Assembly (NCBI RefSeq): GCF_008795985.1
Contig: NZ_VMHP01000002.1
Coordinates: 1,116,001 to 1,180,000, forward strand
Reading direction: 5' to 3'
DNA: 64,000 nucleotides
Origin: Marinobacter halotolerans
Lineage (GTDB): Bacteria > Pseudomonadota > Gammaproteobacteria > Pseudomonadales > Oleiphilaceae
This document shows positions 49,561 to 54,402 of this stretch, piece after piece; the stretch's first letter is position 1, and each line of letters starts with the position of its first letter. The translations under genes and the position numbers were made by a program. Under the pieces are notes generated by a model, which worked only from the letters and a program-made list of their open reading frames with translations, had not been told where the DNA came from and made no database searches.

Positions 49561-49783
49561 GTTTGGGGCGATGGATTTGGTCGTTGCGATCGAAAAGCGC
49601 CGAATATTGTGGAAAAGGGTCTTGGTGACAGGTTTTGCTGGTCAATTCGGTTTAATACTTGAAGCTAAAGTATTGAATGAAGGACTTTTCTTTTTCGGTT
49701 TACAGGATTGCCATTTGGAAAGTTAGTCGTGAAAGCGATCAACAGGACGGCTATACAAATGTTATGAGTTCTGAGTGGTGCAG
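49561..49783. other. Gap between nrdJb and the first cassette gene
   Basis: I see no gene, attI site or integrase here. GATCAACAGGACGGC near 49738-49752 resembles the left arm of the downstream attC (GGTCAACGGGACGCC), and GTTATGA follows at 49761, but no full inverted repeat can be built. It may be a decayed attC. Confidence 0.4.
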
Positions 49784-50290
49784 ATGTTCAAAGCTTACGA
49801 TGAGCTAATTGAGAGCAGTGAATACGTCTCAATTGATGAGCTGCTGGCTCATGGTTTTGATCCCGGCCAGCCGGATAACGATGGTCTATTTGTCCTTGAG
49901 CCTGTGTGCCGGGCGCTAGACCTGGATTTAGCCCGTGAATTGATTAGGGCCGGAGCGGATGTGAATTCAAGAGGCAGCACTGGATTTACTCCTCTGCTCT
50001 CAACAATTGACTGCGCCAACCAAGACCCAAAGAAAGCTGTTCAGCTTGTCGAGCTATTGCTGGAACAAGGTGCCAACATCGAGGGAAGAGGTGATTGGGA
50101 TAAAACGCCCTTTCTCAAATCCTGCACGCGAGGCGTCGCCGAGTTAACACGGCTGCTTGTATCTAGAGGTTGCGACATACATGCAACCGCTGCTGAAATT
50201 GGGGGCAATATGGGAGCTATGGAATTCGCTGACACGCCGTCAAACAGTAGGGAATTTCGGCAATATGTCGGTAGTTTGTTCCACTCATAA
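49784..50290 (+). CDS. Ankyrin-repeat protein (cassette 1)
   Basis: A 168-residue protein with about three ankyrin repeats: LARELIRAGADVNSRGSTGF, VELLLEQGANIEGRGDWDK and LTRLLVSRGCDIHATAAE, each with the GAD/GAN turn. No signal peptide or membrane segment, so it is probably cytoplasmic and binds another protein. I chose ATG 49784; GTG codons at 49775 and 49778 are in frame. It ends inside the first attC-like site, as cassette genes usually do. Confidence 0.8.
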   Translation: MFKAYDELIESSEYVSIDELLAHGFDPGQPDNDGLFVLEPVCRALDLDLARELIRAGADVNSRGSTGFTPLLSTIDCANQDPKKAVQLVELLLEQGANIEGRGDWDKTPFLKSCTRGVAELTRLLVSRGCDIHATAAEIGGNMGAMEFADTPSNSREFRQYVGSLFHS

Positions 50291-50356
50291 CAAGGTGGTC
50301 AACGGGACGCCAACTACGCTGCGCTCCGTTGCCGCCCATTACCACTGGCGTTAGGA
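50285..50356 (+). repeat. attC-like recombination site 1
   Basis: TCATAAC (50285-50291) and GTTAGGA (50350-50356) bound an imperfect inverted repeat. The left arm AACAAGGTGGTCAACGGGAC pairs with the right arm CATTACCACTGGCGTT with a few unpaired bases, as expected for attC recognised as a folded single strand. Length 72 bases. Confidence 0.8.
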
Positions 50357-50374: not shown

Positions 50375-50707
50375 ATGTCGGTGATTTCGATTACAGTTCT
50401 TGGTGGCTCCAAATCGGGAGCTGTCGTGAAGGCAGTCCGATGTCTGACTAAGGCAAGCATCGCTGAAGTCACCTGGGCCCTCGAAACCGAGGCGCCTGTT
50501 TTCGAGCGTGAGATTTTTGACAATGAGACTGAAGAAACTTTTGCTCTAGTAAGGGGCTTGCTGGATCAGTCAGAGAACTTGAACCTTTCGCTGGCTATCA
50601 AAGAGGACGGTGTGGAAATCTCACCGCAGATCCTTCGCAACATAATGTCATCTTCCGATGAGATCGGACTTGAGGTGCGACGACTTGATGAATTCGGGCA
50701 TAGTTGA
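50375..50707 (+). CDS. Uncharacterised 110-residue protein (cassette 2)
   Basis: A single small gene between two attC-like sites, with GAGG upstream of ATG 50375. The start MSVISITVLGGSKSGAVVKA suggests an alpha/beta fold, followed by acidic helices (ETEETFALVRGLLDQSENL). No signal peptide, no membrane helix and no family recognised. Its isolated position in a cassette is the best support that it is real. Confidence 0.75.
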   Translation: MSVISITVLGGSKSGAVVKAVRCLTKASIAEVTWALETEAPVFEREIFDNETEETFALVRGLLDQSENLNLSLAIKEDGVEISPQILRNIMSSSDEIGLEVRRLDEFGHS

Positions 50708-50710
50708 TTG

Positions 50711-50794
50711 TCCTAACCATCGCAGGCACGGCGACGGCTTTTCCATTGCGGCTTCGCCTCCATTCCAAAGCCGCGCATGCTGCGGGCGTTAGAC
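50711..50794 (+). repeat. attC-like recombination site 2
   Basis: TCCTAAC (50711-50717) and GTTAGAC (50788-50794) are the outer boxes; the latter fits GTTRRRY exactly. The arms pair as CTAACCATCGCAGGCAC with the complement of GCGCATGCTGCGGGCGTTAG, with an inner pair GCGGCTTCGCC. Length 84 bases. This is the clearest site of the array. Confidence 0.9.
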
Positions 50795-50818
50795 GCTGGG
50801 TTCGAACAAGGAGAGGAA

Positions 50819-51247
50819 ATGAGCACAAGACAGATCCACGTTTTCATCAGTCACGCCTGGAAATATTCAGGACATTACAAAACACTTGCAAGTTGGATCT
50901 TCGAAGAAAACTGGAGTGTGGGTCAAGCGTCCCTGGACTTTCGGAATTATTCTGTACCAAAGGATAATCCAATTCACAATGCACCTAACGACAAGCAGCT
51001 CAAACAAGCGATATTAAAACAAATTGCTATGAGTCACGTGATAGTGATTCCGACAGGGATGTATACCGGATATAGCAAATGGATCGCAAAAGAAATCCAA
51101 GGTTCTACCGACTACGGCAAGCCAATTTTAGCAGTTAACCCACAAGGTCAACGTCGCACCTCGGGCGTGGTAGCTAATGCATCATCGATGTCGGTTGGCT
51201 GGGCAAAAAAATCCGTAATTGGAGGGATCTGGGAGCTGTACAAGTAA
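50819..51247 (+). CDS. TIR-like (Thoeris ThsB / MTH538) protein, cassette 3
   Basis: A 142-residue protein starting at ATG 50819 behind GGAGAGG. The N-terminal strand and loop IHVFISHAWKYSGHY (6-20) is the TIR-like start seen in ThsB and MTH538/DUF1863 proteins. KQAILKQIAMSHVIVIP (62-78) is the next helix-strand pair, and W88 and E92 in KWIAKEI fit the TIR W-x3-E catalytic position. KPILAVNP follows. ThsB-like TIRs use NAD+ to make cyclic ADP-ribose signals upon phage infection. Its stop overlaps the next ATG as TAATG, so the two are made together. Function here is inferred. Confidence 0.82.
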   Translation: MSTRQIHVFISHAWKYSGHYKTLASWIFEENWSVGQASLDFRNYSVPKDNPIHNAPNDKQLKQAILKQIAMSHVIVIPTGMYTGYSKWIAKEIQGSTDYGKPILAVNPQGQRRTSGVVANASSMSVGWAKKSVIGGIWELYK

Positions 51248-52131
51248 TGGCCTCTATCGATATCGACTCAGAAGATTTACCTGGACTATATCAATCAGCT
51301 AATCAGGCGTCACTTAGCTCGCAGAATGTCTACTACACCGGTTTGAAGTGGTACCTTTTTCTGTTAGTGCTTGCAGCATTCGTTTCGTACTTGCGCCCAA
51401 CTGATGCTGTGGGAGCATTAGTTTCGGCAAGCCTCTTCCTGATTACGCTCGGAATACTCATTTTCATCCGGGTTAAAAGACCCGATGACGTTTGGTACAA
51501 CGGTCGCGCGGTTGCGGAATCGGTCAAAACTATCGCTTGGCGCTGGATGATGAGGGCCGAGCCATACGAAGACGATGAGAACATCGAAATTGTATCTCGA
51601 ACATTTCTAAGTGACCTCAAGACGATACTAGATCAGAACAAAAGTCTTTCTCATTCACTTCAGGCAGGAATTGCCTTAAATGACCCAATATCTGAAAAAA
51701 TGCGAGAGGTCAGAAAGCTCCCAGTTGCGGATAGGTTGCTTGTCTACGTGAACCATCGGGTAACCGACCAAGCGAACTGGTATTGGATGAAATCGCGGTT
51801 CAATAAGCGCCGTGCTCAACAGTGGTTCTGGGTATCTGTCGTGTTGCACTCCGCCGCGATCCTTATGCTGCTTTACAGAATCAAAGATCCTTCCTTGGCT
51901 CTTCCCGTTGAAGTATTAGCGACCGCTGCTGGTGCCGTACTAACTTGGCTTCAGGCTAAGAAGCACAATGAATTGAATTCTGCATACGCATTAGCCGCCC
52001 ATGAGATTGTAATAATCAAAGGTGAGTCCACGTCGGTGCATGATGAAGGGCAACTGTCCGAGTTCGTAACCAATAGTGAATCAGCATTTTCAAGGGAGCA
52101 TACACAGTGGGTCGCACGCAAGGGAGACTAG
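51247..52131 (+). CDS. SLATT/DUF4231 four-helix membrane protein, cassette 3
   Basis: A 294-residue protein with two pairs of membrane helices: about 35-49 and 55-76, then about 183-200 and 210-226. After the first pair comes WYNGRAVAESVKTIAWRWMM followed by RAEPYE, the hallmark of SLATT domains (SMODS- and SLOG-associating two-helix effectors). The second half (VNHRVTDQANWYWMKSRFNK before helix three) fits a second SLATT unit. SLATT proteins are predicted pore-forming effectors of nucleotide-signal defence systems. Translational coupling to the TIR gene suggests it is the effector of that signal. Confidence 0.82.
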   Translation: MASIDIDSEDLPGLYQSANQASLSSQNVYYTGLKWYLFLLVLAAFVSYLRPTDAVGALVSASLFLITLGILIFIRVKRPDDVWYNGRAVAESVKTIAWRWMMRAEPYEDDENIEIVSRTFLSDLKTILDQNKSLSHSLQAGIALNDPISEKMREVRKLPVADRLLVYVNHRVTDQANWYWMKSRFNKRRAQQWFWVSVVLHSAAILMLLYRIKDPSLALPVEVLATAAGAVLTWLQAKKHNELNSAYALAAHEIVIIKGESTSVHDEGQLSEFVTNSESAFSREHTQWVARKGD

Positions 52132-52132
52132 C

Positions 52133-52234
52133 CCCTAACAAGGCGCATCAATACGCGGCCCGTCGCCGCCGGACGCCCTTTTCATTTCGGCTGCGCCTCC
52201 ATTTCAAGAGCGCCGTTGTGCGCTGGCGTTCAAA
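52133..52234 (+). repeat. attC-like recombination site 3
   Basis: CCCTAAC (52133-52139) and GTTCAAA (52228-52234, one mismatch to GTTRRRY) bound a 102-base imperfect palindrome. Left arm AACAAGGCGCA and right arm TGCGCTGGCGTT pair, as do GGACGCCCTTTTCATTTCGG and the CATTTCAAGAGCGCC side. The arrangement matches long Pseudomonas/Vibrio-type sites. Confidence 0.88.
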
Positions 52235-52268
52235 GTCTTTTTCTGTCGCGCTCTGAGAAAGGAAATTG

Positions 52269-52793
52269 ATGAATTTCATTCGGGAAGTAGTTTGGGGAGT
52301 CCTCGGTTGGGTCTGGCTTGTGTTAACTGGCTTGGCGTCAATAGCTAGCTGGCTTGGGCTTCCTTCAGGTATCAGTGATCGTGAACGAGTCCTCGCCGTT
52401 GTAGCTCTAGCGTCTGCATTGGCAGCGGTGATGCTCCTCTACAGGTGCCATCAGATTTATGCTCAAGTGAGAGCGCCGGTGACGGTTCGAAAGATTGCGG
52501 ACGGCAAACATCATTACCTCGGGTCGATGGTTCTCATACTTGACCGATCAAACTGGATTCATGCGGAGCAAATATTGGTACTTCTCCAAACGACAGACGA
52601 CGTTCAGACACCCATCGCCTTGTTAAGAGTCGAAACGTTTACAACCAAAAAGTTCCCCCAATGTGTGGTGCTGAGGTCATTAACTAACGAATATCTAAAA
52701 GATTATTTGTCAGACCCGTCTCGTTGGGCAAGCATGAGTGTAGTTCCAGAGATACGGTCCCGGTTTCTAGAGGATAATGCAGATGTCGAATAA
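52269..52793 (+). CDS. Uncharacterised two-helix membrane protein (cassette 4)
   Basis: A 174-residue protein. Two membrane segments lie near the N-terminus (VVWGVLGWVWLVLTGLASIA, VLAVVALASALAAVMLLY), then about 120 cytoplasmic residues with beta character (GSMVLILDRSNWIHAEQILV, FPQCVVLRSLTNEYLKDYL). GAGAAAGGAAA precedes ATG 52269. No family recognised. It overlaps the next gene by 11 bases, which points to a two-protein unit. Confidence 0.75.
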   Translation: MNFIREVVWGVLGWVWLVLTGLASIASWLGLPSGISDRERVLAVVALASALAAVMLLYRCHQIYAQVRAPVTVRKIADGKHHYLGSMVLILDRSNWIHAEQILVLLQTTDDVQTPIALLRVETFTTKKFPQCVVLRSLTNEYLKDYLSDPSRWASMSVVPEIRSRFLEDNADVE

Positions 52794-53160
52794 GCAAACT
52801 GAAGCCGATGATGTTGTTTTTGAGGGTCGCATCGCTCAAATCATTGATGATCATCGGATCGTTCTTAACAAAGGCCGCGAGCATGGAGTCCGAATAGGGC
52901 AGCGTTTCCTGATTTTGGCAATCGGTGATGAGATATTTGATCCGGAAACGCATGAAAGCCTGGGTCAGGTCGAAGTCGTCAAAGGAAGAGGCGAAGTTAC
53001 TCACGTGCAAGAGAAAATGTCGACTCTCCAAACAACGGAAACCCATGAAATTAGGCGGAAACCATCTACATTGTTTGCACTAACTCAAGGAGCTGAGGTC
53101 GCCCACGAGCCAAAAGCGTTTATCGACCCAGAGATAGGCGATATTGCGCGGCGCCTCTAA
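52783..53160 (+). CDS. Uncharacterised small beta-rich protein (cassette 4)
   Basis: A 125-residue protein starting at ATG 52783 with AGAGG nine bases upstream. The middle (GRIAQIIDDHRIVLNKGREH, GVRIGQRFLILAIG) resembles small beta-barrel modules such as those at the end of FlgT, where a KG..GV.VG..F pattern recurs; this is a fold-level resemblance only. It has no signal peptide. The coupling to the membrane protein upstream suggests they act together. Confidence 0.72.
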   Translation: MSNKQTEADDVVFEGRIAQIIDDHRIVLNKGREHGVRIGQRFLILAIGDEIFDPETHESLGQVEVVKGRGEVTHVQEKMSTLQTTETHEIRRKPSTLFALTQGAEVAHEPKAFIDPEIGDIARRL

Positions 53161-53216
53161 TGGATTTGCACAAGTCGCTGTTGTCGGACAATTTTCCCCG
53201 CCGCTTCGCGTTAGTT
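53155..53216 (+). repeat. attC-like recombination site 4 (short, weak)
   Basis: CTCTAAT (53155-53161) and GTTAGTT (53210-53216) bound 62 bases containing CAAGTCGCT, TGTCGGACA and CGCCGCTTCGCGTTAG, a layout seen in short attC sites. Pairing of the arms is less complete than at the other sites. It falls exactly between two cassette genes. Confidence 0.6.
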
Positions 53217-53226
53217 GGAAGAGTAC

Positions 53227-53835
53227 ATGGAGCATGTCGTAAACATCATAAATGCATTAGCTTGGCCAGCCGCAGTTATCTGGCTGGGCTACCTCTTCCG
53301 TTCGGATCTTCGAAAACTACTTGGCCGCGTGACATCTCTGAAATACAAGGATGTCGAAGCAAACTTTGAAAAAGAGCTCGCTGCAGCAGAGGAAGAGGCA
53401 AGAAAGGTGTTACCGCAGAAAGAGAAACCGTCATGTCCTGCCGACGAGGAACCCGTTTATCCTCCCCCCTACGATGAGCGGTATGAGCGTTTGCTTCGCA
53501 TCGCCGATGAGTCGCCTCGCGCGGCTTTGCTCGAGGCATGGGTTGAGGTGGAGGCATCTCTTTCCGAAGCCGCAGAGAGAAACGGTATCCAAAACTCTCG
53601 CAGGATTTCGGCTCGAAAGGTTGTACTCGAGCTAATAAATACCGGAGGTTATGCGAAAACATTGCTTCCGTTTTTTGAGGATCTAAGAAGATTACGCAAC
53701 GAAGCTGCTCACGCTCCCCATTTTGTGCCTACGAGTAAACAGACTCGCAGGTATCTGCAAATGGCGATTGAACTTGCTCTCACATTGCAGAATCCTTTGG
53801 AACCGACTAACCAGTCACGTATGGCGGACGCATGA
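53227..53835 (+). CDS. Membrane-anchored HEPN/DUF4145-like protein (cassette 5)
   Basis: A 202-residue protein from ATG 53227, with GGAAGAG just upstream. An N-terminal membrane helix (about 5-25) is followed by a charged coiled linker (VEANFEKELAAAEEEARKV) and a C-terminal helical domain. That domain holds R157-N-x3-H162 in LRRLRNEAAHAP, the Rx4-6H motif of HEPN RNases and DUF4145 proteins. HEPN domains often act as RNA-cleaving toxins in defence. Membrane attachment is unusual for a free RNase. An attC overlaps its last codons. Confidence 0.75.
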   Translation: MEHVVNIINALAWPAAVIWLGYLFRSDLRKLLGRVTSLKYKDVEANFEKELAAAEEEARKVLPQKEKPSCPADEEPVYPPPYDERYERLLRIADESPRAALLEAWVEVEASLSEAAERNGIQNSRRISARKVVLELINTGGYAKTLLPFFEDLRRLRNEAAHAPHFVPTSKQTRRYLQMAIELALTLQNPLEPTNQSRMADA

Positions 53836-53869
53836 GACGCGCCGCTTCGTTCAACGTTGTCTATTAGGG
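53805..53869 (+). repeat. attC-like recombination site 5, overlapping the upstream gene end
   Basis: GACTAAC (53805-53811) and ATTAGGG (53863-53869) bound 65 bases. CTAACCAGTCACGTATG pairs with the complement of CAACGTTGTCTATTAG with few gaps, and GGCGGACGC lies opposite GCGCCGC. About half of the site codes for the last residues of the HEPN-like protein. Confidence 0.65.
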
Positions 53870-53874
53870 GTCTT

Positions 53875-54402
53875 ATGAAGATTTTTAGGTTTTTGCCGCT
53901 GCTTTCCTTGGTTTTACTACAAGCCTGCGCAAACCCGTCAATTGTAAATGTTCGTGAGCATATGGTCTCGGACATCCCACCTGAGGCGGTAATTTTTGTC
54001 CCGAGATTTGAGGGTAACCCGAATTTCGTTGAGGAAAGTACCGATTATTATGTATCCCGACTCGAGAGCTCTATAGATAATCGCGTTGTTCAAGGAAGTG
54101 TGTTGAGGCAAGAATCGACAGATATCATTTCGGGGGGCAATCTGGCTCCTGTTGAAATCGCCCTGAAAGTATCTCGCGGACAGAACTATGACTTACTAAT
54201 CATGGGCAAGGTCACAAGCCATAGCACAATGGGCACTTTGAATGGTTTCTCGACAGTCAGAGTTTATGATGTGGCGACAGGAGAGCGCATCGCAAATTTC
54301 CACCGCCCTAGCGGTCTGCTGATGGCCTACAGCGAGCACCAATGTGTAATGGCAGCTGTCGAGAGAACAGCGGAGGATTCTGCTTCTATTTTTAATCGGT
54401 AG
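53875..54402 (+). CDS. Uncharacterised lipoprotein (cassette 6)
   Basis: A 175-residue protein with signal MKIFRFLPLLSLVLL and lipobox LLQAC at residues 14-18. The mature part (AVIFVPRFEGNPNFVEES, GQNYDLLIMGKVTSH) has alternating strands. No family recognised. ATG 53875 lies six bases after the fifth attC-like site. The aspartate expected for inner-membrane retention is absent after the lipidated cysteine, so outer-membrane sorting is likely. Confidence 0.75.
   Translation: MKIFRFLPLLSLVLLQACANPSIVNVREHMVSDIPPEAVIFVPRFEGNPNFVEESTDYYVSRLESSIDNRVVQGSVLRQESTDIISGGNLAPVEIALKVSRGQNYDLLIMGKVTSHSTMGTLNGFSTVRVYDVATGERIANFHRPSGLLMAYSEHQCVMAAVERTAEDSASIFNR

Follow-up and report, generated by a model that had tools for sequence, protein, structure and literature searches.

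A gene pair for a TIR protein and a SLATT membrane protein, carried as an integron cassette in Marinobacter halotolerans, is considered here against the systems described closest to it; it lies in a 64,000-nucleotide stretch of contig NZ_VMHP01000002.1 (positions 1,116,001 to 1,180,000 of the forward strand), called the window. In Thoeris, a ThsB is combined with a SIR2-SLOG ThsA in type I and with a transmembrane (TM)-macro ThsA in type II, and type IV joins a TIR to a caspase, as reported in PMC12847820. For firmicute phages, PMC9503650 (2022) describes TIR genes that typically lie beside SLATT genes with two transmembrane helices (2TM), and predicts SLATT to be a membrane effector regulated by ADP-ribose derivatives. 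It has also been reported that a TIR of the P2-like phage AC1 together with transmembrane proteins protects Escherichia coli against lambda, LF82_P8 and P2 (PMC9122126), and that DRT10 consists of a reverse transcriptase, a non-coding RNA and a SLATT, the last being required for phage defence (PMC12632851). For the pair in the window, we consider it likely that it is a Thoeris-like abortive-infection module in the form of an integron cassette, in which the TIR would make an NAD-derived signal and the SLATT would breach the membrane.

Conserved pairing of a ThsB-type TIR with a tandem SLATT

An initial annotation, made from the DNA letters and their open reading frames, had read here a 142-residue TIR-like protein with a FISHAW start, W88 and E92, overlapping as TAATG a 294-residue SLATT protein with two pairs of membrane helices, and every part of this description has held. 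The TIR protein matches Pfam ThsB_TIR at 61.5 bits (cut-off 21.2) and its fold matches that of ThsB; its motif residues are F9-I-S-H-A-W14, W88 and E92. The two frames share one base, the A at 51247. E92, presumed to be the catalytic glutamate, aligns with the glutamate of ThsB 6lhy (motif WVRYEI), and the position is a glutamate in 65 of the 67 SLATT-adjacent TIRs; with this conservation the proposal passes the annotation's own glutamate test. The TIRs of loci L059 and L087 carry Lys or Gln there, and could be inactive partners or second subunits.

In the SLATT protein, Pfam finds SLATT_3 at residues 12-163 (139.1 bits) and SLATT_1 at residues 167-288 (115.2 bits; cut-off 26.3 each), NCBIfam finds both over cut-off (155.1 and 106.3 bits), and the overlapping DUF4231 is the only other Pfam family above cut-off. 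Hydropathy gives four membrane segments, two per half; by a similar count over 76 aligned SLATTs, 65 have four peaks, 10 have three and one has five. The predicted model is all-helical (predicted local distance difference test, pLDDT, 91.8). With 28 positions invariant over 76 aligned sequences, and no solved relative emerging from searches by sequence and by fold, the tandem SLATT is a good target for a SLATT structure. The SLATT assignment stands by family match, with no solved SLATT for a structural one. In PADLOC, ThsB models match the TIR protein, at 30.2 bits and below, and no model matches the SLATT protein.

The pairing recurs in other genomes. A SLATT profile built from seven proteins (the window's, together with six plasmid relatives out of the SLATT hits) detected 373 relatives among contigs representing one genome per species, and the best 80 of the 373 were fetched. 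Linkage was tested, with a TIR profile refined on these loci, in the 77 whose upstream sequence reaches 600 bp or more, the other three being cut by a contig end. A same-strand TIR ends no more than 250 bp upstream of the SLATT in 69 of the 77, and a TIR lies within 250 bp on either side in 72. This is far above chance, and the co-occurrence on which the initial annotation had made its proposal depend is found. As an independent check, Pfam ThsB_TIR matches all 70 TIRs scanned, namely 66 of the 69, the window's and three plasmid ones. The five loci without an adjacent TIR are L034, L062, L063, L064 and L089; three TIRs lie 1.3-2.2 kb upstream in L064, and L034 and L062 have ordinary neighbours. 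More than one TIR per locus occurs in 29 of the 80 relatives. In two of the 72 linked loci (L025 and L046) the TIR belongs to a long protein; at L025:5954-8608 a SLATT without upstream TIR is followed by an 885-residue frame with a TIR-like start and, read by eye, an apparent NTPase part. At L027:5001-5882 a related SLATT gene is broken by an in-frame stop. In the Rhizobiaceae plasmid clusters L014, L009 and L011 the SLATT has TIRs in its vicinity and, differing from cluster to cluster, a DNA lyase, a QueC-like protein, a TRAFs-binding protein and a carbohydrate kinase.

In 369 sampled genomes of this class, among them the source genome, there were 17 SLATT_3 and 70 ThsB_TIR matches. By coordinates, 6 of the 17 SLATT_3 matches have a TIR match no more than 2 kb away (3/12 over the Pfam cut-off and 3/5 below it), and 7 of the 70 ThsB_TIR matches have a SLATT_3 match nearby. 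Both of the top-scoring SLATT_3 matches (147.5 bits, and 141.1 for the window's own) directly adjoin a TIR match. Close SLATT relatives are thus nearly always paired with a TIR, weaker SLATT_3 matches often are not, and most ThsB-type TIRs are partnered otherwise. Among sampled relatives the distribution is patchy (2/195, the source genome included). The arrangement also varies, with TIR and SLATT convergent in Vibrio vulnificus and Salmonella plasmids, a TIR 349 bp downstream of the SLATT in Rhizobium, a SLATT flanked by TIRs on either side in Neorhizobium, a convergent TIR that is annotated differently in Rhodococcus, and the nearest annotated TIR almost 3 kb off in Agrobacterium. TIRs closely related to the window's have other neighbours as well: a 40% identical one in Thiolapillus adjoins a caspase-family gene, a 66% identical one in Rhizobium rhizogenes adjoins a second TIR with a caspase-family gene nearby, and a 45% identical one in Synechococcus adjoins a short unnamed protein.

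The integron cassette

The location of both genes in one integron cassette between attC sites, as initially annotated, is borne out by a second genome of the genus (G072), in which 50788-52230 recurs with 97.2% identity. The block has the same neighbour in both genomes, an adenosylcobalamin-dependent ribonucleotide reductase gene (NrdJ_Z, 566 bits), the region of which is only 85.9% identical. Since the identity ends at the attC GTT on both sides, this block is one cassette. In G072 the sequence 3' of the cassette differs and the two upstream cassettes are missing, the distance from flank to cassette being 200 bp as against 1.2 kb here. The block is more alike than its surroundings, as recent cassette transfer would make it. 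Thus the TIR-SLATT unit is an integron gene cassette, flanked by attC sites, mobile as a unit and ending at the crossover GTT (Table 1).

The 5' attC folds into a long hairpin and matches stretches of 13 plasmid records with 82-94% identity over 66-86 bp; no annotated feature lies beneath 11 of the 13 matches, and one match sits between a small-efflux-pump gene and the next gene. The 3' attC shares 83.5% identity over 85 bp with a class 1 integron attC on an E. coli plasmid. That plasmid site lies between aadA1 and qacEdelta1, spans CACTAAC to GCGTTAGAT, and is the final attC ahead of the 3' segment that carries qacEdelta1. Five further attC-like copies, 76-93% identical, form two clusters on contig C1 of the source genome (1456164-1459614 and 1971360-1977714). 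No complete integron with its integrase gene was recognised in this 5-contig assembly, in which no match exceeds the TIGR02249 integron integrase cut-off (best 85.6 of 265 bits). G072 has an integron integrase (413.6 bits, nearly the whole family model; G072:C1:658409-659338, L106) on a different contig from the cassette.

Sites of this kind also accompany more distant pairs. L085 (Salinivibrio siamensis) has a SLATT 40% identical to the window's; here, read by eye, a stretch ending GCGTTAGAC immediately precedes the TIR and one ending GCGTTATAG immediately follows the SLATT, and a third attC-like site, 88% identical to the window's, lies more than 4 kb upstream. In L102 (Halomonas salipaludis; SLATT 37% identical), the SLATT stop marks the start of a site with 78% identity to that of the window, the upstream side being less clear. 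TIR-SLATT pairs therefore adjoin attC sites in three genera with well-separated SLATTs. The attC similarity search found none in the other 78 of the 80 loci; it detects only close relatives of the window's three sites and so gives no count of cassettes.

Table 1. Features of the TIR-SLATT cassette and its surroundings (positions in the window)
Feature	Position	Strand	Evidence
attC-like site between two upstream cassettes, ends GTTAGGA	50285..50356	+	read by eye; weaker evidence, only 7-9 bp matches to other two sites
5' attC site, crossover G50788 (GTTAGAC)	50711..50794	+	hairpin -33.4 kcal/mol, arms paired; plasmid matches; copies in own genome
Mobile cassette unit	50788..52230 (3' end about 52230)	+	1443-bp block 97.2% identical in G072, bounded by GTT crossover points
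ThsB-type TIR gene, 142 residues; AAGGAGAGGAA precedes start codon	50819..51247	+	
E92 codon (presumed catalytic glutamate)	51092..51094	+	conservation; alignment with ThsB 6lhy
SLATT_3-SLATT_1 tandem membrane protein gene, 294 residues, presumed effector	51247..52131	+	Pfam, NCBIfam, model
First membrane-helix pair, residues 31-49 and 56-74	51337..51468	+	hydropathy peaks 1.64, 2.49
Second membrane-helix pair, residues 194-212 and 217-235	51826..51951	+	hydropathy peaks 1.77, 1.73
Cassette's own attC, directly 3' of SLATT stop	52133..52234	+	class 1 integron attC match; 96% over 102 bp in G072

Of the two upstream cassettes, one (gene at 49775-50290) encodes a 171-residue ankyrin-repeat protein that also matches the PADLOC candidate family PDC-M72A (44.8 bits), and the other (50375-50707) a 110-residue protein with no Pfam match. 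Beyond the last recognised attC, 52266-53835 holds three short genes for which Pfam gives nothing over cut-off; the third weakly matches PADLOC CARF-HEPN (14.7 bits). G072 lacks the stretch 52231-54400, except for a 52-bp match elsewhere.

Exchange of TIRs and the possible mode of action

Of the two genes of the pair, the TIR is the one that varies and the SLATT the one that is kept. Thirteen SLATTs are 61-67% identical to the window's, and twelve of them have partner TIRs that share no more than 17-37% identity with the TIR of the window (the thirteenth has one of 64%); conversely, L086 and L099 have TIRs 63-64% identical to the window's beside SLATTs 38-39% identical. Pairwise TIR and SLATT distances over 64 pairs are weakly correlated (Spearman 0.17; top of 1000 permutations 0.136). 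By residues 9 and 12, the 67 TIRs fall into classes of 30 FH (the window's included), 27 FF (among them one Ile row, L087) and 10 Y, the 57 non-Y partners being of the phenylalanine type with one exception. On the SLATT tree of the 64 pairs these classes need 14 changes, against a minimum of 2 and 27.4 when shuffled, so they cluster yet have repeatedly been exchanged; it is a quick tree in which 18 of the 61 forks are weak, and its starred branches alone force at least 4 changes for the Y class.

The Y class is of particular consequence. According to PMC11204291, an active-site tyrosine beside the catalytic glutamate occurred, among 426 ThsB, only in those with TM-macro effectors, and NADase TIRs usually have Phe or Ala. 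Equating position 9 with that residue rests on the alignment with EcThsB2 (TYVAF over vFisF) and on the matching nucleoside hydrolase fold, and not on a stated residue number. By this equation both active-site kinds, phenylalanine and tyrosine, occur with SLATT effectors. It is possible, though less likely than not, that this amounts to a plug-in immunity in which one tandem-SLATT effector family serves different TIR chemistries and its units move as integron cassettes; SLATT clades would then have switched their activating signal several times, or would read a part common to all ADP-ribose signals, and a so far undescribed signal may be involved. As far as we searched, both the repeated swapping of TIRs of different active-site type on one tandem-SLATT family and the occurrence of TIR-SLATT pairs beside attC in three genera are new.

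In the module that we favour, the TIR would be the sensor, activated on phage infection, and through E92 it would convert NAD+ to an ADP-ribose-derived signal, as its family and this residue suggest. The signal would bind the conserved helical part of the SLATT outside the membrane, and the SLATT would then assemble or open and breach the membrane; SLATTs are predicted to form pores (PMC12632851). Growth of the infected cell would stop and the phage would not spread. We propose that TIRs can be exchanged on the same effector because the partners are linked by a small molecule and not by a tailored contact. Described Thoeris signals are 3' cyclic ADP-ribose (3'cADPR) in type I, histidine-ADP-ribose (His-ADPR) in type II and N7-cADPR in type IV (PMC12847820), and 2'cADPR in type VI (PMC13232231). 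The annotation's statement that ThsB-type TIRs make cyclic ADP-ribose signals calls for a correction: the signals reported in PMC12847820 are not only cyclic ADP-ribose isomers. For the window's TIR there are only hints: the Phe-type site would argue against type II chemistry, and the caspase partner of the 40% identical TIR would make N7-cADPR one candidate.

An unlikely alternative is direct contact: the TIR, once activated by phage, would attach to SLATT proteins at the membrane and draw them into clusters, and any cleavage of NAD would be incidental. A tight overlapping operon would suit it, as would the loss of the glutamate in two TIRs of the set; however, that glutamate is kept in the 65 others, and a tailored contact should not tolerate the exchange seen both among the close SLATTs and, conversely, in L086 and L099. 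About as improbable, or slightly more so, is that the TIR is itself the killer, an NADase for which the SLATT serves as membrane anchor, regulator or immunity partner, or that the pair is a toxin-antitoxin unit also stabilising the cassette. Toxin-antitoxin cassettes do occur in integron arrays. TIRs can also be NADase effectors (PMC12847820), but a constant SLATT with a variable TIR is the opposite of a conserved killer, SLATTs are also found without a nearby TIR, and in DRT10 the SLATT is a required partner.

We give very little credence to the pair being a stress or housekeeping signalling pair unrelated to phage. No phage assay of a TIR-SLATT pair was found, and the TIR-less SLATTs of L034 and L062 have ordinary-looking surroundings; against this, the patchy distribution and the mobility are typical of defence, and TIR effectors, restriction enzymes and other PADLOC families are found in the neighbourhood of related loci. 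In numbers, 81 PADLOC families (E 1e-8; families counted, not proteins) were matched among 136 neighbours, the nearest unrelated ones, two per locus, whereas an equal number of control proteins, taken from 18 stretches in ten genomes of the class, gave 40; since the control is not matched by phylum, this difference is supporting colour and not a test. The Pfam family most frequent among the neighbours is that of the TPR-S sensor proteins (9/136), and MAP3K_TRAF_bd accounts for 5/136.

If the signalling module proves true, bacterial TIR signalling gains a membrane-breaching SLATT effector, encoded in a 1.4-kb unit capable of moving as an integron cassette. With TIRs exchanged time and again on a conserved effector, two matters can be put directly to the test, namely the ligand read by SLATT domains and the interchangeability of sensor and effector in TIR immunity.

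Comparison with described systems

The initial annotation knew of no characterised system with exactly this pair; a precedent for the pairing does exist in the firmicute-phage neighbourhoods of PMC9503650, where, as here, a TIR gene is linked to a SLATT gene. Those SLATTs are described as 2TM, whereas here a two-times-2TM SLATT_3-SLATT_1 protein is encoded in an integron cassette, and no record of a phage collection matches the window's SLATT. The AC1 system, as described in PMC9122126, likewise has a TIR with membrane partners, which may or may not be SLATTs; unlike the TIR-SLATT pair it has three genes. DRT10 has in common with the pair a SLATT protein, there needed for phage defence, but that SLATT works with a reverse transcriptase and its cDNA and not with a TIR (PMC12632851). 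Neither a CD-NTase nor a reverse transcriptase, as in CBASS and DRT10, was found by Pfam, PADLOC or NCBIfam in the pair and the five surrounding window proteins, to which this search was confined. Type VI Thoeris and the TIR systems of the 2025 preprint of Yirmiya et al., known to us through citing papers, likewise use TIR-based signalling, and that preprint, a systematic discovery of TIR signalling systems, probably contains the TIR-SLATT pair.

The likeness to Thoeris is in a ThsB-family TIR beside one effector gene, in the conserved glutamate, and in the several TIRs per locus of some relatives; the difference is in the effector, here a tandem SLATT protein. Pfam finds no SIR2, SLOG, macro or caspase domain in the pair, the search for macro and caspase domains being confined to the pair, and SIR2_2 has no match in the source genome. 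The idea of a Thoeris variant whose ThsA is replaced is supported as a Thoeris-like reading: the TIR-SLATT pair is Thoeris-like by sensor and layout, and by its effector, a SLATT in the place of the type I, II or IV partner, it is not Thoeris of any of these three types.
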